Of a stretch of 64,000 nt of DNA, positions 40,087 to 56,177 are shown piece after piece. The notes under the pieces are model-generated. The model searched no databases. It saw only the letters and a program-made list of their open reading frames with translations, and was not told the DNA's origin. Source of the stretch: Pseudomonas mendocina (GTDB lineage: Bacteria > Pseudomonadota > Gammaproteobacteria > Pseudomonadales > Pseudomonadaceae); assembly GCF_900636545.1 (NCBI RefSeq), contig NZ_LR134290.1, forward strand, positions 1,178,001 through 1,242,000. The letters run 5' to 3'. A program made the translations under genes and the position numbers. Position 1 is the stretch's first letter, and the number at the start of each line of letters is the position of its first letter.

Positions 40087-40271
40087 GGGCCAGCGCGCGC
40101 GGCGGCGCTGCAGCCTGCTGAGGCGGATTTTCCGGCATCGCCCGACAGCCCCGCAAGCACCGTCCGAGTGGTTGAGAGGTCAGCCGCAGGCTCAGAAATG
40201 AGCGATTCAGCGAGTCGCCACCTGCGAAGCCTAACCGCTTGATAAAACGTAAATTTATCGACGATCTGGGG

Positions 40272-40300
40272 TTGACAGCGGTAGGCGAGACGCGGAAAAT
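40272..40300 (+). promoter_or_regulatory. Sigma-70 promoter of tRNA-Met
   Basis: TTGACA (40272-40277) is a perfect -35, followed after 17 bp by GAAAAT (40295-40300) as -10. A G+C-rich discriminator (GCGCGCC) follows, as is usual for stringently controlled stable-RNA genes. Transcription would start just before the tRNA at 40311. Confidence 0.75.
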
Positions 40301-40310
40301 GCGCGCCGTT

Positions 40311-40387
40311 GGCTACATAGCTCAGTCGGTTAGAGCGCAGCATTCATAATGCTGATGTCCCAGGTTCAAGTCCCGGTGTAGCCACCA
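40311..40387 (+). tRNA. tRNA-Met (anticodon CAT), prophage attachment gene
   Basis: The 77-nt cloverleaf has acceptor GGCTACA/TGTAGCC, D-arm GCTC-AGTCGGTTA-GAGC, anticodon stem CAGCA/TGCTG with loop TTCATAA (anticodon CAT), T-arm CCAGGTTCAAGTCCCGG, and encoded CCA. It is elongator-type (first pair G-C, no initiator mismatch). Its 3' 46 nt plus TAT are duplicated at 52485-52533. In P. aeruginosa a tRNA-Met lies next to ychF, the arrangement seen here once the prophage is removed. Confidence 0.97.
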
Positions 40388-40390
40388 TAT
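40342..40390 (+). repeat. attL core (3' part of tRNA-Met)
   Basis: A 49-bp segment identical to 52485-52533. It starts ATTCATAATGCTGATG and ends GCCACCATAT, so integration keeps the tRNA whole at this end. Confidence 0.95.
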
Positions 40391-40394
40391 TTTT

Positions 40395-40422
40395 CAAAGG
40401 GTTAGCTTAGGCTAGCCCTTTG
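40395..40422 (+). terminator. Phage-supplied terminator after tRNA-Met
   Basis: CAAAGGGTTAGC and GCTAGCCCTTTG pair (one wobble) around TTAG. It mimics but is not identical to the hairpin after attR (52541-52567), which was the native one before integration. The T-run here is short (GTCGTTTC). Confidence 0.6.
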
Positions 40423-40471
40423 TCGTTTCTGGGGTAGTGACTACGAAGTGACTACACCGCGCCTACGGATT

Positions 40472-40535
40472 GCAAGGATGCAAGGATGCAAGGATGCAAG
40501 GATGCAAGGATGCAAGGATGCAAGGATGCAGTGAT
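40472..40535 (+). repeat. Octanucleotide tandem repeat (GCAAGGAT)x7 with a degenerate eighth copy
   Basis: Seven exact head-to-tail copies of GCAAGGAT span 40472-40527, then GCAGTGAT. Each junction gives AAGGATGCAAGGATG, i.e. a Shine-Dalgarno-like AAGGA and an ATG. The tract directly precedes and contains the start of the small membrane protein gene at 40534. Eight is not a multiple of three, so copy number changes shift any frame entering the tract. Confidence 0.9.
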
Positions 40536-40827
40536 GAGACGAATTGGCCTCTGGCTATATTGGATAGGCATTTCTCTAGGAGCATTAGGGTGGGGCGGTC
40601 TTATCCTACTGGGATACGACTGCATTATTGATACCCCGGAAGCCCCTGCCGGCAAGTCAGCATTCACTTATTGCTTAGCAGTAGCAGTAACTGTACCGCA
40701 GCTCCTACTAGTCCCCGCTACGCTCCTTATCGCCATAACCATACCTTGGCAAAACCTCAAACAGTTCCGTATTGGCTTTGGCCTCGTAGTCGCCCCGACA
40801 CTTCTATTGCTGACACGGTTGTATTAG
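40534..40827 (+). CDS. Prophage small membrane protein behind an octamer repeat
   Basis: The 97-residue protein starts at ATG 40534 (MRRIGLWLYWIGISLGALGW), with AAGGATGCAGTG upstream derived from the last repeats. An open frame from 40486 would add repeat-encoded MQGCKDAR-type residues. Three hydrophobic segments are visible (GLWLYWIGISLGALGWGGLI; CLAVAVTVPQLLLVPATLLI; FRIGFGLVVAPTLLLL). The last 71 nt overlap the convergent integrase gene. Function unknown; membrane location and phage setting suggest a superinfection or envelope effect (inference). Confidence 0.62.
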   Translation: MRRIGLWLYWIGISLGALGWGGLILLGYDCIIDTPEAPAGKSAFTYCLAVAVTVPQLLLVPATLLIAITIPWQNLKQFRIGFGLVVAPTLLLLTRLY

Positions 40828-41809
40828 CTAGGCAGCCTGATTGAGCAAGAGGAGAAAGCCGAAGTGCCGACTCCAAATGATCAGGCGACAGGTGCGCATA
40901 ACGCATGGTCATGGTGATGGTCGAGTGCCCAAGGATCCGTTGTAGGCCCAGGATGTCACCACCGCCCATCATGTAATGGCTGGCGAAGGTATGGCGCAAG
41001 ATGTGGGTCATTTGCCCCGGTGTATGGAAACCGCAACGTAGGTAGGCAGAGCGAAAGGCGGATCGGCAAGGCATGAACAGCCGGCCGTTTCCGGGCATTC
41101 CTACCTTTAACGCAATGTCTTCGACTTCTTTCGGGATCGGCACCGAGCGAGACTGGCGGTTCTTCGTCCGATGAAAGTGGGCCTTACCGCCGAACAGGGC
41201 ACCCCGTGACAGGGATTCCGCTTCATCCCATCGGGCGCCAGTGGCCAAGCAGATCAGCGCAACCGGATAGGTATGGTTGTTGGTCGAGCGCTTGCACTCT
41301 TCCAGCAGTTGTTCGACCTGTTGCAGTGTCAGAAACGTCAGCTCGGTCTGATCTGTCTTAATCTGACGAACCTTGGCCAACGGGTTGTTGCCGACCCAGG
41401 CACCCAGGCGGATCAGTTCGGAGAAGACCGCCGACAGGTAGCGCTGTTCATGGTTGACGGTGTGCGGGCTGACATCCTTGAGGCGTGTCTGGCGATAGCG
41501 TGCCCAGGCGAGGGCATCGAAGTTGGAAGCCATCGGGTTGCCGAGGCGTTCGACCGTGGCCAGGGTGCGTGCAAGACGATGCTTGGCATCCTTGAGCGAG
41601 CAGCCGTGCAGGTCATGCCAGAGCGTCACCAGATCAGACAGCCGATCATCGAGCGGCCGGCCGGTGCTGTTCAGGCTGGCGAAAAACTCCGATTCATAGC
41701 GCTGGGCTGCGGCCTTGGTCTTGAAACCCTTCTTGCGGATGCGGCGACCCGAGCGGCCATTTTCGTAGAAGTCAGCGGTCCAAGTGTTGCCGTCTTTCCT
41801 GGCCGTCAT
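40757..41809 (-). CDS. int: Tyrosine-recombinase integrase of the prophage
   Basis: The 350-residue integrase catalyses site-specific recombination at tRNA-Met. The N-terminal arm-binding domain (WTADFYENGRSGRRIRKKGFKT in parts) is followed by a core-binding domain and the catalytic domain: Arg in ATGARWDEAESL, HILRHTFASH with His-x-x-Arg and the second His, and nucleophile Tyr in TMRYAHLSP. The start is ATG 41809, overlapping the rep stop by 4 nt (ATGA), so it is translationally coupled to rep and expressed with the replication module, as in Pf phages. Its 3' end overlaps the convergent 97-aa gene. Confidence 0.93.
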   Translation of the reverse strand: MTARKDGNTWTADFYENGRSGRRIRKKGFKTKAAAQRYESEFFASLNSTGRPLDDRLSDLVTLWHDLHGCSLKDAKHRLARTLATVERLGNPMASNFDALAWARYRQTRLKDVSPHTVNHEQRYLSAVFSELIRLGAWVGNNPLAKVRQIKTDQTELTFLTLQQVEQLLEECKRSTNNHTYPVALICLATGARWDEAESLSRGALFGGKAHFHRTKNRQSRSVPIPKEVEDIALKVGMPGNGRLFMPCRSAFRSAYLRCGFHTPGQMTHILRHTFASHYMMGGGDILGLQRILGHSTITMTMRYAHLSPDHLESALRLSPLAQSGCLANTTVSAIEVSGRLRGQSQYGTV

Positions 41810-43089
41810 ACAGCACGCCCCCAACGAACATGGCGTTCTTCCAGGATGCCCTTAATGTGTTTATACAGCCCGTCTTCATCCATGCCCTTGGCGGCATAGT
41901 GGTCGCGGATTACCGGCCAGCATTCCCAATCCTTGAGCCGGTGAAATGCTCGTCTAGCGCCCACTCGCTCCCGTGCCAGCAGGCTGACGAAGTTTCCCAG
42001 GAATAGCTCGACGTTCTTCCCCGAGAAGCCTCGCGAGGTCTTGTAATGGCGCTTGTACTCGGTTTCATCCACCAGGGAATCCACCGGCAGATCCACGCGC
42101 ACATCGTCACGGATCAGCGTCCAGATGGGTTCGAAATAACCAGGGCGAGCCAGCAACTTGAACTGACGCAGGCCATAGCGCCACAGGCCATCTAGATGCG
42201 GTGCAAAAGCGGCATAGCTGTTGGTTTCGATGGTTTCGCCGCTGTGCAGGTCAAACGAGCCTGAGGCGAATTGCTGAATCACCGAGTGGTGATAGCGCAG
42301 CTCGACACGCCACACGTCTTGTTCGGGGTTGTAGTTGTCCGGGTCGGCTTCATCGAAGCTGTCGCGACGCTTCCAGACGTTTTCCCAATAGTCGAGCTTG
42401 TCGATGGAGCGGGCTTGTTCGGTCTTGTTGTAGATACCGAGCTGGACGCCACCGGCAGAGCCGAACAGGTAGGACTGGCCTTTGCCGTAGGTGGCAGACT
42501 CCAGGGTCCACTGAATTTCCTTGATGCCGGAGATATCACGGGCAGCACGTGCGCGGCAGTGCATGCGGGCGACCAGATCAGCAGGCGGTTGCCATCCTTG
42601 CAGGTCTAGCGCGAGGTGAACGGCGCACTGGTTGCGCTCGACATTAGTCAGTACGTGGCTGGCGTAGTAGTCCAGGCGTTCCTGCAAGCGCTCGGGGCAG
42701 AACTGGTCGATAGCGTGGGGCGACACTTCGATTTTCAGGTGGGGCCCGATGTTCTCGATTTTGGCGTTGAAGTTCTTCACCAGCAGGATGATGCCCAGGT
42801 CAGCGTTCTGCAGCTTGTACTGGTAGCCGGAATCCTTGCTGACACGACCCGAGTGCCAACGTTGGCCAGCGAAATCGACGATGGTGCCGGGCTTCTCGAA
42901 CAGGCACATGATTTCCGGGCGGATCAGGCCACGGTACAACTGGCGGACGGTATCGACGCTACAGGCCAGGATTCGGACGTTGGACAGATCCACGAAACCA
43001 CCCGCTCGAGGATCACAGAACAGACGACTTTTTGGGTCTTCTTTCCCGGTCTCAATATCAATGCGGTAGTAGTCCTTTGGTGCGCTCAT
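41806..43089 (-). CDS. Pf-type phage replication initiation protein (Rep)
   Basis: The 427-residue protein is the size of Pf1/Pf4 replication initiator. It would nick the double-stranded form to start rolling-circle replication. Features include KIEVSPHAIDQFCPERLQ, DVWRVELRYHHSVIQQF, a candidate metal/active region, and a C-terminal basic part. Gene order (zot, small gene, rep, int) supports it. The nested palindrome 60 bp upstream is the natural target. The ATG at 43089 has CAGAGA upstream. Confidence 0.87.
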   Translation of the reverse strand: MSAPKDYYRIDIETGKEDPKSRLFCDPRAGGFVDLSNVRILACSVDTVRQLYRGLIRPEIMCLFEKPGTIVDFAGQRWHSGRVSKDSGYQYKLQNADLGIILLVKNFNAKIENIGPHLKIEVSPHAIDQFCPERLQERLDYYASHVLTNVERNQCAVHLALDLQGWQPPADLVARMHCRARAARDISGIKEIQWTLESATYGKGQSYLFGSAGGVQLGIYNKTEQARSIDKLDYWENVWKRRDSFDEADPDNYNPEQDVWRVELRYHHSVIQQFASGSFDLHSGETIETNSYAAFAPHLDGLWRYGLRQFKLLARPGYFEPIWTLIRDDVRVDLPVDSLVDETEYKRHYKTSRGFSGKNVELFLGNFVSLLARERVGARRAFHRLKDWECWPVIRDHYAAKGMDEDGLYKHIKGILEERHVRWGRAV

Positions 43090-47112: not shown

Positions 47113-47481
47113 TCAGGCCTTGGCCGCGTCCGGCTGGGCGCCGGTCGGCTTGGGCTGTTGTTGGGTGGCTTGCGTGGCGGCAGGCTTGGCGGCCTGAGCG
47201 GGCTTGGCCGACTCGACGTGCAGGACGATGAACTTGCCGGCGTTCTTGGAGCCGCGTTCGATCTCGACGGTTACGCGGGCGGTTTCGAGCACGTCGAGAC
47301 CTTTGCAGGCGCCCCATACTTCTTCGCGAACGTCTTCGGATACCTGCATCGAGAGCAGGGAGACGCCAAGGTCCTTTTCGCCGTCCGGTTCGTCGCCCAG
47401 GTACAGCTTGACCAGATCCACGTTGTCGAACTTCACGCGCTCAGCGCTGATGAATGCCAGTTCCATAGTGGTGCGTGCCAT
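47113..47481 (-). CDS. Single-stranded DNA-binding protein (pV-like helix-destabilising)
   Basis: The 122-residue protein starts at ATG 47481 with GAGGTAACACAAC upstream. An OB-fold-like N-terminal ~90 residues (DNVDLVKLYLGDEPDGEKDLG, ARVTVEIERGSKNAGKFIVLHV in parts) is followed by a low-complexity Ala/Gln/Pro tail (AKPAATQATQQQPKPTGAQP). In Pf phages the protein at this position coats nascent viral ssDNA before packaging. Family match rests on position, size and tail. Confidence 0.75.
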   Translation of the reverse strand: MARTTMELAFISAERVKFDNVDLVKLYLGDEPDGEKDLGVSLLSMQVSEDVREEVWGACKGLDVLETARVTVEIERGSKNAGKFIVLHVESAKPAQAAKPAATQATQQQPKPTGAQPDAAKA

Positions 47482-47861: not shown

Positions 47862-48565
47862 GCGCTCACCCCACCAGTTCGAACGGTTCGCGCAGAGGCA
47901 CGAAGGGCGTTGGTTTGCCGGTGTCGAGCACAACGTGCCAGTACTTCGGCGGTCGGCTCGGTGGCGTGTGTTTCTCGCAGGTATAGGCCGGCGTAACGTG
48001 GGTCCGACCATTTACCTTGGACCATTGCGCGGGGCGGCACTCGGTGCATGGTGTGGATCGGCAGGTAGCCGATGGAGACGATGCTGGGAGAGTCGACCAG
48101 TTTCGATTGACGTAGCACACAGAGCAGTCGCAGTTCGCGGGGTGCGGCTGGTGCAGGTACTGGCTCAGGCTTTTCATTGGTCGCCTCCAGGGTTTGAGAC
48201 TTCCCATGAACAGGATCGACAACGTAGTAGCCGGGCATATGGATCACGCCAGTCATTGATTCAGCAGCCAGTTCAGCTTTGTGGCGTTTGAACCACACTG
48301 ACGTAGGCATGTATGGCCCAGCGTTACGAGCATCGGGAAAGTTCAGATTTGCGGAGTACAGAGCCGCACTCCGAAGCAGGCGATTGAGCCGAAGAAATTC
48401 AGGTGCAGAGATATAGCCCTCAGTCAGCCCACGATTGATCAGCGATGAGGCTTCCGTCAGCGAGTCACCCTCTGTGCCATGTGGATCATTGGAAAGGCGA
48501 ACCTCAGTAAGCGCACAGAGCAGGCGCCAGAGGAAGTTTTGGTAGTCCATGACTGGCTTAGTCAT
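47858..48565 (-). CDS. Unknown prophage protein, 235 aa, 3' half shared with another frame
   Basis: It starts MTKPVMDYQNFLWRLLCALT, 8 nt inside the end of the excisionase-like gene. The first ~145 residues (SLTEASSLINRGLTEGYISAPEFLRLNRLLRS in parts; YMPTSVWFKRHKAELAAESM) are clearly coding. Beyond about residue 130 the frame runs opposite the 103-aa gene in a different phase. The middle (SIVSIGYLPIHTMHRVPPRA) still looks protein-like, but the last ~30 residues (RQTNALRASARTVRTGG) look like a shadow. Either the gene truly overlaps or it has lost its stop. Family not recognised. Confidence 0.6.
   Translation of the reverse strand: MTKPVMDYQNFLWRLLCALTEVRLSNDPHGTEGDSLTEASSLINRGLTEGYISAPEFLRLNRLLRSAALYSANLNFPDARNAGPYMPTSVWFKRHKAELAAESMTGVIHMPGYYVVDPVHGKSQTLEATNEKPEPVPAPAAPRELRLLCVLRQSKLVDSPSIVSIGYLPIHTMHRVPPRAMVQGKWSDPRYAGLYLRETHATEPTAEVLARCARHRQTNALRASARTVRTGGVSA
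47866..48177 (-). CDS. Cys-rich small prophage protein (103 aa), overlapping the 235-aa frame
   Basis: ATG 48177 has an excellent RBS (GGAGGCGACCA). The protein begins MKSLSQYLHQPHPANCDCSV; cysteines C16, C18, C21, then C44-x-x-C47, then C67-x-x-H70 suggest a zinc-binding fold. The tail KYWHVVLDTGKPTPFVPLRE looks like ordinary protein. G/C third positions are frequent throughout, better than the competing frame near both ends. The whole gene lies inside the 3' half of the 235-aa frame in another phase. Confidence 0.65.
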   Translation of the reverse strand: MKSLSQYLHQPHPANCDCSVCYVNRNWSTLPASSPSATCRSTPCTECRPAQWSKVNGRTHVTPAYTCEKHTPPSRPPKYWHVVLDTGKPTPFVPLREPFELVG

Positions 48566-48830
48566 CGCTGTAATCCCCCGCGCAGAAGATGGTTTTGCCT
48601 CGGTCGAGGTCGCGGCGGATGCGGTGCAGGTTGATGACGCGGTGACGGCCGATTTTCACGGTCGGGACGGTGTGGCTTTCGATCCAGCCGCGCACCACGT
48701 CTTCGGTGATTTGCTCAGTGCCCAGAAGCTGAGCCAGCACGTATTTCGTGCAGAACGGTGCGTCGCGGAAATCCGTTACGCGTTGGGCGTCTCCCGAAAT
48801 CGAAAGCCCCACTACACCAGACTGTTCCAT
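48558..48830 (-). CDS. Excisionase-like small DNA-binding protein
   Basis: The 90-residue protein carries a winged-helix/MerR-like motif of the Xis/AlpA type (ITEDVVRGWIESHTVPTVKIGRHRVINLHRIRRDL in parts: VRGWIESHTVPTVKIGRHRV). It is the first gene of the minus-strand phage operon and is divergent from the repressor, the position of the excisionase/lytic regulator in Pf phages. AGGACATTCGC precedes the ATG. It probably directs integrase towards excision and represses or activates the switch region. Confidence 0.8.
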   Translation of the reverse strand: MEQSGVVGLSISGDAQRVTDFRDAPFCTKYVLAQLLGTEQITEDVVRGWIESHTVPTVKIGRHRVINLHRIRRDLDRGKTIFCAGDYSDD

Positions 48831-48939: not shown

Positions 48940-49206
48940 ATGATAAGAGATCGGCTTATAAGCCTTTTCGACAGTAAGCGGACGAGCGTCTGGTTTGAGA
49001 AGGAGACCGGCATCGACCGATACCGGTGGGGAAACATCCGTAGCGGTAAGGCACGACTGTCTGACGCCGAGATAGATGCCGTCGTGAAGGTATTTCCTCA
49101 GTATTCTCTATGGCTGGTCAGCGGCGAGATCGCGCCGGAGATAGGCCAGACCAGCCCCGAATTCGACGAAGCCAACCGAAACTTGGCCAATCCAAACGCG
49201 GGATAG
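48940..49206 (+). CDS. Prophage repressor, small HTH DNA-binding protein
   Basis: The 88-residue protein reads MIRDRLISLFDSKRTSVWFE and onward, with an XRE-like helix-turn-helix (SVWFEKETGIDRYRWGNIRS; ARLSDAEIDAVVKVFP). The C-terminal text YSLWLVSGEIAPEIGQTSPE is seen in many small phage/prophage repressors of Pseudomonas. It is divergent from the excisionase-like gene, so it is the immunity repressor (C-type) candidate. AGGA lies directly against the ATG, an unusually short spacing, so expression may be weak or leaderless. Confidence 0.78.
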   Translation: MIRDRLISLFDSKRTSVWFEKETGIDRYRWGNIRSGKARLSDAEIDAVVKVFPQYSLWLVSGEIAPEIGQTSPEFDEANRNLANPNAG

Positions 49207-49269: not shown

Positions 49270-49659
49270 ATGGGACGCCAAGTGGCCGCCGCGGTCATTT
49301 ATCGGGACGGAAAGATCCTGATCACTCGCCGAGCCCCAGGCGAGAAACTAGCGGGCATGTGGGAGTTCCCGGGCGGAAAGCTCGAAGCTGACGAAACCCC
49401 GCAAGCTTGCATCATCCGTGAGCTGCACGAAGAGCTTGGCGTCGAATCGGATGCCGGCGAGATCCTCACCACGTCTATCTACACATACCCGGGCGGCACC
49501 ATCGAGTTGATTGCAGTGGTGGTCGAGCTGCGGTCTACCGCTCTCAAGCTCCAGGTGCACGATCTGGCTGAGTGGGTCCCGCCTAATGAACTGCTGGGCT
49601 ATGAATTAGCCCCCGCAGACATTCCGATTGCCGAAGAGATCATCCGCACGTATGGCTAG
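49270..49659 (+). CDS. NUDIX hydrolase, MutT/8-oxo-dGTP diphosphatase-like (prophage cargo)
   Basis: The 129-residue enzyme has a complete NUDIX box: G-x5-E-x7-REL-HEELG in GGKLEADETPQACIIRELHE then ELGV (residues about 36-58). Start text RQVAAAVIYRDGKILITRRA is MutT-like. It should hydrolyse a nucleoside diphosphate linked to another moiety, possibly oxidised or modified dNTPs. ATG 49270 has AAGGAGTAGAGGT. Its stop lies 8 nt inside the downstream nuclease gene, so the two are coupled. Confidence 0.9.
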   Translation: MGRQVAAAVIYRDGKILITRRAPGEKLAGMWEFPGGKLEADETPQACIIRELHEELGVESDAGEILTTSIYTYPGGTIELIAVVVELRSTALKLQVHDLAEWVPPNELLGYELAPADIPIAEEIIRTYG

Positions 49660-50485
49660 CTTCATGCCGCCAGTACCTGGCGCAACGCTCAATAATGACG
49701 AGCTCACAGCGACCTTTCTTTGCAGCGGACAAGGTGGCATGCGCCGGTCCAAGCGCACCAATACGTTGGTTATCGTCTCGAACCATGTCGAGTCGGTGTA
49801 TGACGATCGTTGGATAAACGACGTGCTGCATTACACCGGCATGGGGCAGGTTGGCCCCCAGTCGCTTGAATTCAATCAGAACAGGACGCTGAACGAATCG
49901 CCTACCAACGGCGTAGCGGTCCATCTGTTCGAGGTTTTCACCAAGCGCGTATACACCTACATCGGTGAAGTTGTTCTGGCCGGCAAGCCTTATCAAGAGC
50001 AGCAGCTAGATGCAGAGGGCAACAACCGACCGGTATGGGTGTTCCCGTTGCGGTTGAAGGCAGGCAGCTTGCCTGAGATACCTGATACCACGCTGAAAGC
50101 GCTGGACCAGGTTAAAGAGAAACAAGCTCGCTACCTAAGCGACACCGAAGTCGAGAAACTGGCCAAGCAGCAGGGGCAGGCAAAGGTAGGAACGCGCACC
50201 GTTAGCGCCACTCAGCATCAGCGCTCGGCATGGGTCGCCGAGAATGCAAGACGTCGAGCCAAAGGCCATTGTGAGCTATGTGGAGAGCCGGCACCGTTTA
50301 AGCGGAAGGATGGTAGCCCTTACCTGGAGGCACACCATATCGAGTGGCTGGCTAACGGCGGAGCGGACATAGTGGAGAACACCGTGGCACTTTGTCCTAA
50401 CTGTCACCGAAAAATGCATGTTGTTAACAGCGAGTCTGATCGGACCATTCTCAAAATGAAAACAAGCCTGGAGCATGCCACTTAA
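49652..50485 (+). CDS. SRA-like plus HNH endonuclease (type IV restriction-like), prophage cargo
   Basis: The 277-residue protein has two domains. Residues ~1-130 resemble the SRA/YDG-type modified-base reader of McrA-like enzymes (FLCSGQGGMRRSKRTNTLVI, YDDRWINDVLHYTGMGQVGP, AVHLFEVFTKRVYTYIGEVV). Residues ~195-265 are an HNH nuclease: CELCGEPAPF, LEAHHIEWLANGG, NTVALCPNCHRKMH with two CxxC zinc knuckles and the His pair. This is the layout of enzymes cutting DNA with modified cytosine or other marks. The start at ATG 49652 overlaps the NUDIX gene. Confidence 0.82.
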   Translation: MASFMPPVPGATLNNDELTATFLCSGQGGMRRSKRTNTLVIVSNHVESVYDDRWINDVLHYTGMGQVGPQSLEFNQNRTLNESPTNGVAVHLFEVFTKRVYTYIGEVVLAGKPYQEQQLDAEGNNRPVWVFPLRLKAGSLPEIPDTTLKALDQVKEKQARYLSDTEVEKLAKQQGQAKVGTRTVSATQHQRSAWVAENARRRAKGHCELCGEPAPFKRKDGSPYLEAHHIEWLANGGADIVENTVALCPNCHRKMHVVNSESDRTILKMKTSLEHAT

Positions 50486-50558
50486 TTGAGGGCGATATGA
50501 AAGGCTGTGTTGGTGTTTGTAAATGAGGAGTAAAAATATTTAGTCGGAATAAGAGCGG

Positions 50559-51230
50559 TCAATCTGCCTCTATGCCGTCTTCGAAAGACGCAAAACCACC
50601 GGAGCTATATTTCTGAGCTACATGGTAGGGGAGTATATTTTCGATATAGAAATAAAAGCCTCGCCAAGTATACGCTACAAAGAATAAGAAAAGAAAAATG
50701 AAGAGGGCAAGGTTTGGAAGAGTGAAATTCAGGCCTAGCATCGTAGAAAAAGCAGCTCCCAAAATAATCTGGGAGGTAGTTCTTTTTCGTGAGTATGCCG
50801 CTCTTTTTTGAGAGAGTTTTGCTTCTGCATCCTTTCCAAGGAAAAACATTGCTAATGGTGACTTTTGCTTGAGCTGAAGTAGGATTTTATTTGACTCAAT
50901 CATATGAGAGTCAAAGTCGTCACGCAGAGAGAACAGGAAAAATAGTCCCTCGGACATTTCCTTGGCAAGCCACGATAGGACAAAAACAAAAATAAATGAC
51001 GCAAAAAGCTCTAGAATGCTAAATGTAGAGAAAATTCCAGAGCTGAAGTCTATTGCGTCATTTATTTTTACTTTAGAGAGTCCGTCAATAAGGTTTGTTT
51101 CTTCTAGAGTGTAGAAGATATGCCAGGAAACTACGAAAAAAAACCAGCAAAGTATATTGGCGAGCGTGAGCGCTTCATCAAGCTCGCCTTTGAATTTGTC
51201 TTTGCAGAGTTCCGTCAGTTGCTCAATCAT
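50559..51230 (-). CDS. Four-helix membrane protein of unknown family (prophage cargo, second gene of pair)
   Basis: The 223-residue protein has hydrophobic helices at about 22-42 (ILCWFFFVVSWHIFYTL), 72-90 (ILELFASFIFVFVLSWLA), 150-168 and 172-195 (LALFIFLFLFFVAYTWRGFY). A charged cytosolic loop between helices 2 and 3 (LKQKSPLAMFFLGKDAEAKL) links the two pairs. Its ATG overlaps the stop of the 282-aa gene (ATGA). The A+T content is far above that of the phage core. I do not recognise it; the layout suits a membrane effector. Confidence 0.8.
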   Translation of the reverse strand: MIEQLTELCKDKFKGELDEALTLANILCWFFFVVSWHIFYTLEETNLIDGLSKVKINDAIDFSSGIFSTFSILELFASFIFVFVLSWLAKEMSEGLFFLFSLRDDFDSHMIESNKILLQLKQKSPLAMFFLGKDAEAKLSQKRAAYSRKRTTSQIILGAAFSTMLGLNFTLPNLALFIFLFLFFVAYTWRGFYFYIENILPYHVAQKYSSGGFASFEDGIEAD

Positions 51231-52075
51231 ACGAGTGACAAAAAGAATATGTCTCCGGCTTTAGCGTCATATGCTCCGCCCTCGAAGATTGGACAGCCAA
51301 GGAAATGCATTGGTTCAGGTAAGCCAAGATATTTCTTGATGGATTGAAATTCAAAGTCGTTGGCAAAATGAAGTTTTGATTGCTTGGAGCTTGATATGTT
51401 AAATATTGTACCGGTTCCGTTCTTGTGATCTAGTTCGGTTACTCTTACTGAGAAAATCAGAGGTTCTCCAAGAGATCGCTTGGATATGAATTGGTGGAAG
51501 TTTTCGCTCGAGACCCTGTTGAATGTGAATGTTGAGCTTTGTTCCCCGCCAATACCTAGCTCTACAACGCTGTTGCCTGCGCCGGGAGTCCGAACAATAC
51601 TGGCTATCATATCAATTTCTTTATTTATCGCGCGATCGCCGTATGGGTTTTCAGATGCAGTAGGAAGATAAGATTCATAGTGAATAGGATCAATGATACC
51701 TTTGCTGACTTGCTCGGCGCGTAAAGCAGCTTGGTCAGCAAGTGATCCTAGGTTGGAAAGAGACTGAATTTTGGCCTTTTCTGTTGCTGGAGAAATGGCA
51801 CGCACCATTCGTGTCAAAGTCTTTTTTATCAAAGGACTGTCGTTGATGAAGTCGATAATATAACCGCCTTCTTGAGGGGCGCGCGACCAGAATTCAGTCG
51901 CTTCGTAGTCCTCGTGAGCCATACGTGCGCCTTTCCACACCTCTCCATATTTAGTGTCAAGGTAAGCACGGTTAATTGCGGCCTGTAAATGGAACAGACC
52001 TTTGCCTAAAGTACGAAGTGAAACTCGGTGGTCTCTGGTAATGTCCCCATCAAAGTGAAGTAATATCTGTCCCAT
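51227..52075 (-). CDS. Soluble protein of unknown family (prophage cargo, first gene of pair)
   Basis: The 282-residue product starts MGQILLHFDGDITRDHRVSL and continues RTLGKGLFHLQAAINRAYLD, then APQEGGYIIDFINDSPLIKK. There is no signal peptide or membrane helix. A mixed alpha/beta N-terminal ~95 residues is followed by a helical middle with a polar run (NLGSLADQAALRAEQVSKG) and a beta-rich C-terminus (LIFSVRVTELDHKNGTGTIFN). It is coupled to the membrane gene by 4 nt. It could be the sensor or regulator of that protein. I do not recognise a family, and A+T-rich codons mark recent transfer. Confidence 0.8.
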   Translation of the reverse strand: MGQILLHFDGDITRDHRVSLRTLGKGLFHLQAAINRAYLDTKYGEVWKGARMAHEDYEATEFWSRAPQEGGYIIDFINDSPLIKKTLTRMVRAISPATEKAKIQSLSNLGSLADQAALRAEQVSKGIIDPIHYESYLPTASENPYGDRAINKEIDMIASIVRTPGAGNSVVELGIGGEQSSTFTFNRVSSENFHQFISKRSLGEPLIFSVRVTELDHKNGTGTIFNISSSKQSKLHFANDFEFQSIKKYLGLPEPMHFLGCPIFEGGAYDAKAGDIFFLSLV

Positions 52076-52484
52076 ATTTATTCCATTAGTATTGATAGCT
52101 GCCTGGCTGTTAGGGTTCGATAGCTTTAAGGTTATTTAATTTTTACGATCATGTTGATCGATAGCGCTTTACTGGTGTGAAAATAAAGCTTATAGAAATA
52201 CGGATTGGCAATAGCCCGAACCAAAATGAAAGGCTTGGAGTTATTGAAAAGAGCGCGCAGTGGGTAGGAGGTAAATCGCTCATGGTTTCCTTACCTATCA
52301 TCAGGCCACAAAATAGGCAAATGGCCAGCATGACTAAAGCTATCCGCTCAGCGGGATAACGTAAAGAGGTTAGGGTGACTACATTGGTCGAATTTTCTGG
52401 AAAGGACTGGTCTAGCCAGCTTGGCGGAGGTCTGAAAACCCCGTTTTATGGGGCCTTCTGGCTCGGCGGGGCGGTTCGTAGCGG
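52076..52484. other. Non-coding A+T-rich stretch between cargo operon and attR
   Basis: About 400 bp. Promoter elements for the minus-strand cargo pair should lie at 52080-52160 (A/T-rich, several TA-rich -10-like words). Weak 60-codon frames on either strand around 52150-52360 lack RBS and conservation. Near attR, AAAACCCC/GGGG (52436-52453) forms a small hairpin. Confidence 0.5.
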
Positions 52485-52533
52485 ATTCATAATGCTGATG
52501 TCCCAGGTTCAAGTCCCGGTGTAGCCACCATAT
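52485..52533 (+). repeat. attR core
   Basis: A 49-bp perfect copy of 40342-40390, i.e. the 3' half of tRNA-Met with CCA. The sequence just before (GCGG instead of GCAGC) breaks the anticodon stem, so this copy is not a functional tRNA. Confidence 0.95.
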
Positions 52534-52540
52534 ACTTCAA

Positions 52541-52567
52541 GGGGTTAGCGCAAGCTAGCCCCTTTTT
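52541..52567 (+). terminator. Original tRNA-Met terminator, displaced to the right of attR
   Basis: GGGGTTAGC and GCTAGCCCC form a perfect 9-bp stem around GCAA, followed by TTTTT. It is a better terminator than the phage-supplied look-alike at 40395-40422. Confidence 0.8.
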
Positions 52568-52609
52568 ATTTGGGCCGGTGTCCCCGAACTGTCCCTTTCT
52601 TGTCCCAGC

Positions 52610-53554
52610 CTACGACTGTCCTGATAAGCGATCTGGTATTGCATCCATGCTGTCGCATATCTCCTCAAGAAGCTCAGAGAATGCACTCATAGCGGTCACC
52701 ACTTTTTGGTACTCAGAAAGGCTAGCTGAGCATGCATCGCTGAGAGGAAACGGTTCCAGCACCCCCATCGTATAGCTCACACATTTCTTGGTCGGATGAT
52801 CTACGAGTAGGTACTCGCCACACGGTTGTTTCACGGTCTCTTGCCAGGGCTCAATTGAACGAACTGCACGCATGATTTGCCCGACCATGAGTCTAGGAGC
52901 AAATGAGTGAACAGATAGGTCGCGGAAATTGCGACTAAGCTTTCGATAAGCCGAATCATTCATCGTATCCAGAGCAGCCAGAAACACATTAAATCGTGTC
53001 CAGCGCTGACCAAGGCGAATGACTTGCTTTCTGCGATCAGAGCGTCGGAGCCCTTGTCCGGGCCTCAAACCATCTTGATCAAGTCGATCAACGTAGCTTG
53101 GATCTACAAGGCAGTTGGCCTGATGTAAAAGTGTTTCTGTAAGAAGCATCAGGCGATCACTGACTGCACTAGGTTGATGCATGCAGAAGAAAGCTAGCGG
53201 CTTAACGAAGTGATGCAGCAGTTGCCACTTGTCTTCATCCTTCTCAAAAGACTCAACAACGGCATTCCATGCGTGCCAGTCTCGCAGGTATTTCCCCCAG
53301 GCATTTATCGTATTGATAGTTTCCTGAATTTCAGCAGCGGCGCCCCAAGACCAAGCAAAGTTGCCATTGGCTGCGCGTGCTCGTTTCACTGCCTCGTAGC
53401 CCACCAAGCCAGGAGTCCCGCAAGTGTTCGCAAGAAGCTGCTTGTAAAATCGCTCCATGGCTTCAGTGGTGAGGTTTCGCCATGAGATCCAGCCTTCACT
53501 ATTGGCGAAATTCTCCTCCGGCTGACCGGACGAGCTGGCGGAGTCTTCAGTCAT
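52610..53554 (-). CDS. Unknown protein with HEPN-like Rx4H motif, next to attR
   Basis: The 314-residue protein starts at ATG 53554 (MTEDSASSSGQPEENFANSE) and is mostly helical, with no signal peptide. The stretch AYRKLSRNFRDLSVHSFAPR contains R-D-L-S-V-H (Rx4H), which resembles the catalytic motif of HEPN ribonucleases (usually in an R-N-x-x-x-H context). Codon use is more A/T-ending than the core genes nearby, suggesting acquired DNA. It lies between attR and ychF, so it is outside the prophage as defined. The HEPN call is tentative. Confidence 0.6.
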   Translation of the reverse strand: MTEDSASSSGQPEENFANSEGWISWRNLTTEAMERFYKQLLANTCGTPGLVGYEAVKRARAANGNFAWSWGAAAEIQETINTINAWGKYLRDWHAWNAVVESFEKDEDKWQLLHHFVKPLAFFCMHQPSAVSDRLMLLTETLLHQANCLVDPSYVDRLDQDGLRPGQGLRRSDRRKQVIRLGQRWTRFNVFLAALDTMNDSAYRKLSRNFRDLSVHSFAPRLMVGQIMRAVRSIEPWQETVKQPCGEYLLVDHPTKKCVSYTMGVLEPFPLSDACSASLSEYQKVVTAMSAFSELLEEICDSMDAIPDRLSGQS

Positions 53555-53732
53555 AACGCAACCAAAATTGCAGTTCAAAGAAGGCTTAACTCTGTCGTGC
53601 TTTCCGACTAACCGCAAGAATCCACCCACAGGAAAAGCAGAGAAGATCGTTACGAACTGGTTCACCAGTCTCAAGACGTCTCAAGCAAAACCAGTGTGGT
53701 AGCGAAGTAATCCGGCAACTCCCCACCCCAAA

Positions 53733-53768
53733 AACAACAAACCCCCGCCGAAGCGGGGGTTTTGTTTA
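53733..53768 (-). terminator. Terminator of the pth-ychF transcript (usable from both sides)
   Basis: ACCCCCGC and GCGGGGGT form a perfect 8-bp stem around CGAA (53741-53760). On the minus strand TTTGTTGTTTTT follows; on the plus strand TTTTGTTT follows. It lies 26 nt after the ychF stop. Confidence 0.9.
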
Positions 53769-53785
53769 TGCACTGCTCCCAACGA

Positions 53786-54886
53786 TCAAACGTTAAAGCG
53801 GAAGTGCATTACGTCGCCGTCCTTGACGATATAGTCCTTGCCTTCCAGGCGCCATTTGCCGGCTTCCTTGGCGCCGCTTTCACCCTTGTAGGCGATGAAG
53901 TCGTCGTAGGCGACCACTTCGGCGCGGATAAAGCCTTTCTCGAAGTCAGTGTGGATCACGGCGGCGGCCTGCGGGGCGGTGGCGCCGACACGGACGGTCC
54001 AGGCACGCACTTCCTTCACGCCAGCGGTGAAGTAGGTCTGCAGGTTGAGCAGCGAGTAACCGGCGCGGATCACGCGGTTCAGGCCCGGCTCTTCCATGCC
54101 CATGGTTTCGAGGAACATCTGCATTTCTTCCAGATCGTCCAGTTCGGCGATCTCGGCTTCGATCTTGTTGCACACCGGTACGACGATGGCGCCTTCTTCT
54201 TCGGCGATGGCTTTCACCACGTCGAGGTGCGGGTTGTTCTCGAAGCCGTCTTCGGCGACGTTGGCGATGTACATCACCGGCTTGGTGGTGAGCAGGTGGA
54301 AGGTCTTGGCCAGGCGCTTCTCGTCGTCACCCAGGTCCTTGAGCAGGCTGCGCGCCGGTTTGCCTTCGGTGAGGTGGGGGATGAGCTTTTCCAGCAGGGC
54401 CTTCTGCGCCACGGATTCCTTGTCGCCACCCTTGGCGGTACGAGCAACGCGCTGCAGTTGCTTCTCGCAGCTGTCGAGGTCGGCCATGATCAGTTCGAGG
54501 TCGATGATCTCGATATCGCGCTTTGGGTCGACGCTGTTGGCGACGTGAATGACGTTCTCGTCTTCGAAGCAGCGCACGACGTGGGCGATGGCGTCGGTCT
54601 CGCGGATGTTGGCGAGGAACTTGTTGCCCAGGCCTTCACCTTTCGACGCGCCCGCGACCAGGCCGGCGATGTCGACGAATTCCATGGTGGTGGGGATAAC
54701 CTTTTCGGGCTTGACGATCTCGGCCAGGGCATCCAGGCGCGGATCGGGCATGGGCACGATGCCGCTGTTCGGCTCGATGGTGCAGAAGGGGAAGTTTTCT
54801 GCGGCGATGCCGGACTTGGTGAGGGCGTTGAACAGGGTGGACTTGCCGACGTTGGGCAGGCCGACGATGCCGCAGTTGAATCCCAT
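53786..54886 (-). CDS. ychF: Redox-regulated ATPase YchF (OLA1/Obg-like)
   Basis: The 366-residue TRAFAC P-loop protein prefers ATP and binds ribosomes. G1 is [15 protein letters not shown] (about 9-23), G3 is [19 protein letters not shown] (in part), and the altered G4 NVAED replaces NKxD, which explains ATP preference. A coiled-coil insertion and a C-terminal TGS domain ([20 protein letters not shown] in part; [15 protein letters not shown]) follow. Located next to pth, as in most gamma-proteobacteria. Confidence 0.97.
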
Positions 54887-54911
54887 GATGTGTCCCTCGG
54901 GGGAAAGGTGG

Positions 54912-55502
54912 TTACTTGGTGGCCTTCTGGCTATGCAGTTTGCGCATGGCCACGGTCCAGTCGCCGGCGAGTATTTCCGGCAGGACGTCCAAGGCGAAAT
55001 CGATGCTCTTGTCGAGCAGTTCCTGTTCGCTGCGTGGGGCGCGTCCGAGCACGTAGCCGGAGACTAGGCTGGCGTGTCCCGGGTGGCCGATGCCGAGCCG
55101 AAGGCGATGGAAGTTATTCTGGTTGCCGAGCTGGGCGATGATGTCGCGCAGGCCGTTGTGCCCACCGTGACCGCCGCCTTGCTTGAGCTTGGCGACGCCG
55201 GGTGGCATGTCGAGTTCGTCGTGGGCCACCAGGATCTCTTCGGGTTTGATCTTGAAGAAATTGGCCAGGGCCGCCACGGACTGGCCGCTGCGGTTCATGT
55301 AGGTGGTGGGGATGAGCAGACGAACTTCGCGCCCCTGGTGGTTGAATTTGCCCACCAGGCCGAAATACTTGCGATCTACGGAGAGGTTGACGCGCTGGCT
55401 GGCTGCCACGCGCTCAACGAAAAGGGCCCCTGCATTGTGCCGGGTCTGGTCGTATTCGGGACCTGGGTTTCCCAGGCCAACGATCAGTTGTACGGCAGTC
55501 AT
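54912..55502 (-). CDS. pth: Peptidyl-tRNA hydrolase
   Basis: It frees tRNA from prematurely released peptidyl-tRNA. The 196 residues include [20 protein letters not shown] with the catalytic His, [10 protein letters not shown], and [13 protein letters not shown] with the active-site Asp, then [13 protein letters not shown]. ychF begins 25 bp downstream, and rplY is 60 bp upstream. Confidence 0.97.
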
Positions 55503-55524
55503 ACAGGAGCCCTTTCGCTAACAT

Positions 55525-55550
55525 GGCCCGGCGTGATCGCATGCCGGGCC
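55525..55550. repeat. Hairpin between rplY and pth
   Basis: GGCCCGGC (55525-55532) and GCCGGGCC (55543-55550) pair perfectly around 10 nt. There is no T-run on either side. It may weaken read-through from rplY into pth or stabilise the upstream message. Confidence 0.5.
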
Positions 55551-55562
55551 TGCTACTGACGA

Positions 55563-56177
55563 TTACTCGGCAGCGCCTTCGCCGGCAGCTTCTTCACGAA
55601 CGCGCGGCAGGTGGATGCTGGCTACCGGCAGGTCGCTGCCGTGGGCCAGAGCAACCAGCTCAACGCCTTTCGGCAGCTTGATGTCGGACAGGTGAACGGT
55701 CTGGTCAACAGCGACCTTGGCCATGTCGACTTCGATGAATTCCGGCAGGTCTTTCGGCAGGCAGGAAACTTCGACTTCGTTCAGGGCGTGCAGGACTTCG
55801 CCGCCGCCTTGCTTGACGCCAACGGAGCTGGCTTCGTTGATGAAGTGCAGCGGTACGTGGGCGGTCAGTTTCTGGCCGGCAACGACGCGTTGGAAGTCAG
55901 CGTGCAGAACGAAGCCTTTGGCCGGGTGGCGCTGCAGGGCTTTGATCAGTACGTTTTCTTTGGTGCCGGCAACGTCCAGGCTCAGGACGTGGCTGAAGGC
56001 AGCTTCGTTTTCCAGCAGCTTGGCCAGGTCTTTGGCCAGCAGGCTGATGGATTGCGGGGCTTTGTCGCCACCGTAGATTACGGCAGGCACCATGGACACG
56101 TTACGACGCAGGCGGCGGCTCGCACCTTTCCCCAGGTCGGAACGCACTTCGGCATTCAGGGCAAATTCAACAGTCAT
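55563..56177 (-). CDS. rplY: 50S ribosomal protein L25 (general stress protein CTC type)
   Basis: The 204-residue form has an N-terminal L25 5S-rRNA-binding domain ([31 protein letters not shown]) and the longer C-terminal TL5/CTC extension ([37 protein letters not shown]). Start ATG 56177 has GGAGAAGTGAA; a longer open frame upstream is spurious. It follows prs, separated by a terminator, so it needs read-through or its own promoter. Confidence 0.96.

Follow-up and report, generated by a model that had tools for sequence, protein, structure and literature searches.

An A+T-rich gene pair at the end of a filamentous prophage

The 64,000-nucleotide stretch of the Pseudomonas mendocina genome analysed here (contig NZ_LR134290.1, positions 1,178,001 to 1,242,000; hereafter the window) carries a Pf-like filamentous prophage, the right end of which holds a two-gene operon, a candidate anti-phage system. 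The first gene, P1 (51227..52075, minus strand), encodes a soluble protein of 282 amino acids with a calculated mass of 31.3 kDa, the proposed sensor or regulator, and the second, P2 (50559..51230, minus strand), encodes a membrane protein of 223 amino acids with a charged middle part, the proposed membrane effector. The 4-nt ATGA start/stop overlap that a first-pass annotation of this DNA had described between the two genes is confirmed at 51227..51230 on the minus strand, as is its claim of an A+T content far above the surroundings. The G+C content of the operon is 42.6% (57% A+T), against 61.6% (38% A+T) for the whole window and 57.1% for the prophage from attL up to the operon, and none of 571 intervals of 1517 bases outside 50000-53800 falls below 52.5%. 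The operon is a genuine gene pair. When 50401-52300 was shuffled 500 times by mononucleotide, no stop-free run longer than 185 codons arose, and when loci L004 and L005 are compared, third codon positions are 50% identical against 91% and 98% at first and second positions, a divergence expected of genes under protein-level constraint.

The prophage is about 12.1 kb long and is integrated in the 3' end of a tRNA-Met gene. The direct repeat at its two ends measures 87 bases, with 89% identity between the copies and an exact core of 49 bases. Its cargo slot begins at a repressor-like gene (phrog_147; 48940..49206, plus strand) and ends at attR (52485..52571, plus strand), a copy of the tRNA-Met 3' end. 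Between these borders lie a NUDIX hydrolase gene (49270..49659) and an HNH endonuclease gene (49628..50485), both on the plus strand, followed by the P1-P2 operon, which converges with them on the minus strand and is the gene pair nearest to attR; the operon had rightly been placed next to attR and convergent to a restriction-like pair.

Protein families, modelled fold and hydropathy

Neither protein had been assigned to a known family in the first-pass annotation, and the library scans lead to the same conclusion. P1 and P2 match no family in Pfam, NCBIfam or PADLOC (at E 10, PADLOC gave nothing for either protein, and Pfam nothing for P1), and their PHROGs, phrog_28486 for P1 and phrog_31922 for P2, are function-unknown groups. 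In the alignment of 66 P1 sequences 20 columns are invariant, five of them arginines. The model of P1 consists of a weakly ferredoxin-like N-terminal domain (about 1-198) and a C-terminal OB fold (about 200-282), a layout that suggests a nucleic-acid-binding type of architecture.

By simple hydropathy, P2 of the window has three clear hydrophobic segments, and the mean profile of the P2 family leaves room for four. Among the 24 distinct partner sequences described below, 19 have at least four segments; those with fewer are the partners of the window and of L014 (three each), the shortened partner of Escherichia coli locus L032 (two) and those of L021 and L022 (two each). By this measure the earlier description of a four-helix membrane protein suits most of the family, and is less clear for the P2 of the window itself.

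Pairing and distribution of P1 relatives

Consistent pairing had been proposed as a check of the functional reading, and it was found: a membrane-protein gene lies directly downstream of P1 in 39 of 40 P1-bearing places, of which several are mutual copies and five are the window's own unit. A partner was defined as a same-strand open reading frame of at least 120 amino acids starting between -34 and +33 bases from the P1 stop. In the 40th place, L012, P1 is open and the partner is frameshifted in that assembly, and in E. coli strain 382634_2f (L032:10860-11300) the partner is shortened and P1 is intact. The most distant P1 relatives (L028, L029 and L109) keep a partner of 205-213 amino acids with four or five segments. 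In the viral contigs L021 and L022 (L021:8882-9631 and L022:8931-9674), relatives of P1 are paired with a different two-helix membrane protein of 247-249 amino acids and of other sequence; for the partner in L022, the DUF948 and bestrophin-like families match weakly, below cut-off. A Zot gene lies about 1.6 kb upstream of P1 in L021, which may therefore also be a phage of the filamentous type.

Genomes with P1 numbered 8 out of 398 at the level of the genus, 2 out of 369 at that of the class and 3 out of 398 at that of the phylum, with the window's own genome included in each count. Homologues are scattered through the gammaproteobacteria and beyond, with examples in Pseudomonas, in enterics, in the Vibrio group and in a single genome of a cyanobacterium. 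Such rarity and scatter are as expected of mobile genes. At loci in genomes of the same genus, the partners match those of named Pseudomonas loci identically, in line with a Pseudomonas host. None of the titles and abstract openings covered by the literature search names the pair, and four accessions of its E. coli proteins led to no paper.

Two defence hotspots

Of 199 genomes of the genus, 18 were found to encode the replication protein of the prophage, the window's own genome among them. The cargo slot was surveyed in 20 elements, namely 19 further Pf-like elements, of which three (L074, L075 and L076) are additional prophages in the window's own genome, and Pseudomonas phage 62-2. Twenty cargo proteins, chosen by eye from 15 of these elements rather than taken from every open reading frame, were scanned against PADLOC; L080, L085, L087, L088 and L090 were left out, since sizeable cargo or a repressor border was not seen there or the contig ended. 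At E 1e-5, 11 of the 20 proteins matched, in 9 of the 15 elements: a retron IV reverse transcriptase and 2TM in L074, Hp1 and Hp2 in L077, HamB2 in L078, PtuA/ATPase-Toprim-like in L081, ShosA in L082, PDC-S31 in L089, PDC-M53A in L091, bSEFIR in L092 and NsnB-like in L093, the PDC families being PADLOC candidates and not proven systems. The nearest relative, L077 (98% identity in the replication protein), occupies the same site, with flanks 93% identical on the right (53716-55771) and 98% on the left (40228-40458), and carries different cargo. This difference, together with the PADLOC matches among the relatives, indicates that the slot exchanges cargo, much of it defence-looking, in keeping with the earlier proposal that filamentous prophages carry anti-phage genes at such ends.

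The second hotspot is found in E. coli, where a homologous pair occupies the cargo position of P4 satellites, flanked by psu and int, in 24 of the 25 genomes with any match, a placement that concerns the E. coli homologues and not the pair of the window; five of these loci were viewed in detail. The psu-int locus of P4 is a published antiviral hotspot.

The genes around P1 were also compared with PADLOC, using 15 neighbours picked by eye from 12 of the 13 genomic loci (L011 was left out), one from L020, and four partners. At E 1e-3 a neighbour matched in 7 of the 12 loci (L003, L006, L007, L008, L009, L010 and L014), most strongly NERD-UvrD in L003 and a retron IV reverse transcriptase with 2TM in L006. 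The four partners that were scanned gave no match.

Other features of the prophage

The integration site is the tRNA-Met (cat) gene at 40311..40387 (plus strand), the 3' end of which, with downstream bases, is covered by attL (40342..40428, plus strand). The genes on the minus strand encode a tyrosine integrase (40757..41824), a replication protein (phrog_1159; 41806..43089) whose relative in Pseudomonas phage 62-2 is annotated as such, a Zot-like assembly ATPase of filamentous phage (43595..44686), a gp5-like DNA-binding protein (phrog_15465; 47113..47481), assigned from its size and position as in phage 62-2, and an excisionase-like protein (phrog_2951; 48558..48830). Phage 62-2 is the closest annotated relative found (34% query coverage, 88.8% identity). 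An IMG/VR contig of 12,146 bases encodes an identical P1 and an identical P2 and is probably the same element.

The companion cargo, outside the P1-P2 pair, consists of the NUDIX hydrolase, which matches the PADLOC candidate PDC-S07 (E 2e-45), and the HNH endonuclease (phrog_15103), which has a C-terminal match to mREase_IV; these overlapping genes (49270-50485) form a second candidate defence pair in the same slot. Just inside attL, beside the integrase, an 8-base unit, TGCAAGGA, is repeated head-to-tail (40471-40534), and an open reading frame of 354 amino acids (52610-53674) just outside attR has no above-cut-off family in four libraries.

Comparison with Rex and Kiwa

A close parallel in arrangement is RexABpp (PP_5643/PP_5644), an operon on the Pseudomonas putida prophage P1 that encodes a soluble protein and a membrane protein with four helices (PMC12894663). 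Defence there requires the two together: the effector that stops growth is the membrane protein, and its trigger is the soluble protein, which binds DNA. The BLAST matches of the system are described as hypothetical proteins of pseudomonads (PMC12894663). Both operons are prophage-borne and place the soluble protein before the membrane protein. The comparison was made by published mass and seven published RexBpp residues, and differences emerge on both counts: tagged RexApp has 37.5 kDa against 31.3 kDa for P1 of the window, some P1 relatives reaching 34-36 kDa, and in none of the ungapped shifts tried do more than four of the seven residues agree with the P2 family. These data neither fit the P1-P2 family well nor exclude kinship. 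RexApp, moreover, matches lambda RexA in HHpred (PMC12894663), whereas the P1 family gave no RexA match in hhalign, in a comparison with a shallow RexA side and no secondary structure; the two results are not directly comparable.

With lambda RexA and RexB the pair shares the gene order and the length of the soluble protein (279 amino acids for RexA, 282 for P1). RexB has a published four-helix topology (PMC11077077), like most P2 relatives, against the three clear segments of P2 in the window. No kinship in sequence or profile was found to either lambda protein: the hhalign probability was 1.0-1.1% for P1 against RexA (one and two RexA sequences, a shallow profile compatible with a remote tie) and 0.1% for P2 against a single RexB sequence. 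In lambda the rex genes directly follow the repressor gene and share its strand, whereas here the repressor-like gene is on the plus strand and the pair on the minus strand. The lambda type is further defined by depolarisation of the membrane, through which phages are excluded. The fold may also differ: RexA is described as RdgC-like (PMC11077077), and the P1 model ends in an OB fold. In Foldseek searches with both P1 models, neither RdgC nor RexA was among the 50 entries listed from the top 1000 chains.

Kiwa (KwaA/KwaB) likewise combines a four-helix membrane protein with a soluble protein. PADLOC includes Kiwa models, and P1 and P2, similar in this general composition, differ in matching no PADLOC model at E 10.

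Proposed function and alternative explanations

We propose, with a probability of roughly 0.6, that P1-P2 is a two-gene abortive-infection module directed against phages, carried as cargo by the Pf-like prophage, with P1 as sensor and P2 as membrane effector. An anti-phage role is very likely in view of the repeated location of the pair in defence hotspots, and the module is probably a Rex-like abortive-infection system by analogy. P1, in the cytoplasm, would probably detect an intermediate, either DNA or protein-DNA, that an infecting phage produces. This trigger would make it act on P2 in the inner membrane, and P2 would open or damage the membrane, so that growth stops and the infection is aborted. 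The division into sensor and effector is suggested by the similar arrangement of RexABpp. The rapid evolution of P2, and the different partner found in L021 and L022, fit an effector that can be swapped behind a conserved sensor. The sensor-effector reading already put forward in the first-pass annotation is therefore sustained as regards pairing and location in defence hotspots, while the anti-phage activity, the trigger, the contact between P1 and P2 and the membrane damage are steps that we infer. The pair is unnamed, its general kind is familiar, and it involves no new principle.

Two results limit the PADLOC evidence. Six of the 15 cargo elements (L075, L076, L079, L083, L084 and L086) gave no PADLOC match; Pfam domains above cut-off were found in two of them, NACHT in L075 and an Mrr nuclease domain in L083, and a cargo protein of L076 has a weak MazG match below cut-off. 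Furthermore, PADLOC also matched 3 of 10 housekeeping-type controls, named by eye, at E 1e-3 (ribose-phosphate-pyrophosphokinase-like, TPR-type and DnaG-like proteins) and 2 of 10 at E 1e-5. Because the controls match too, weak matches of neighbouring genes mean little, and weight is placed on the two hotspots; with the threshold raised to 120 bits, 10 of the 20 slot cargo proteins still match, against 1 of the 10 controls.

The location in a filamentous prophage would also suit a module that serves the prophage's own regulation or immunity and does not act against phages in general. P1 would then bind DNA and adjust lysogeny or excision, and P2 would provide superinfection exclusion at the membrane against filamentous phages related to the prophage; lambda RexA is itself described as biasing the lysogeny switch (PMC11077077). 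Homologous pairs are, however, found in P4 satellites, in L021 with another Zot gene and a different membrane partner, and in chromosomes near defence-type genes, so that the pair is not tied to the life cycle of one element, and a close relative of the prophage has different cargo at the site; we regard this explanation as unlikely. The tight overlap and constant pairing would also fit a toxin-antitoxin or addiction pair, with P2 as membrane toxin, P1 as its neutraliser and maintenance of the element as the main benefit. The shortened (E. coli 382634_2f) and frameshifted (L012) partners beside an intact P1 are what would be expected if P2 were costly, but a two-domain soluble protein of 282 amino acids with 20 invariant columns in 66 sequences would be unusual for an antitoxin, which makes this quite improbable. 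The defence and toxin-antitoxin readings overlap, since many defence pairs behave as toxin-antitoxin pairs. A second-messenger system, with P1 as its enzyme or signal-binding protein and P2 as a ligand-gated channel, is very unlikely: the five invariant arginines could bind phosphate and membrane effectors are common in such systems, yet the family library scans detected no nucleotidyltransferase, TIR, nuclease or other known domain in P1, and no constant third gene was noticed beside the pair.

Alongside the Rex-like module that we favour, it is tentatively conceivable, at less than even odds, that the pair belongs to an undescribed broad family, unrelated in sequence to RexAB, in which a conserved OB-fold sensor is combined with fast-changing, exchangeable membrane effectors, mostly four-helix and, in L021 and L022, two-helix. 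If the anti-phage reading is right, the pair represents an unlisted defence family that PADLOC 2.0 has missed. The signal sensed by lambda Rex is stated as still unknown (PMC12894663), and a conserved sensor with changeable effectors would offer a clean approach to the signal behind Rex-like systems. The survey further points to the right end of Pf-like filamentous prophages as a slot for defence cargo, which may be useful for finding further systems.
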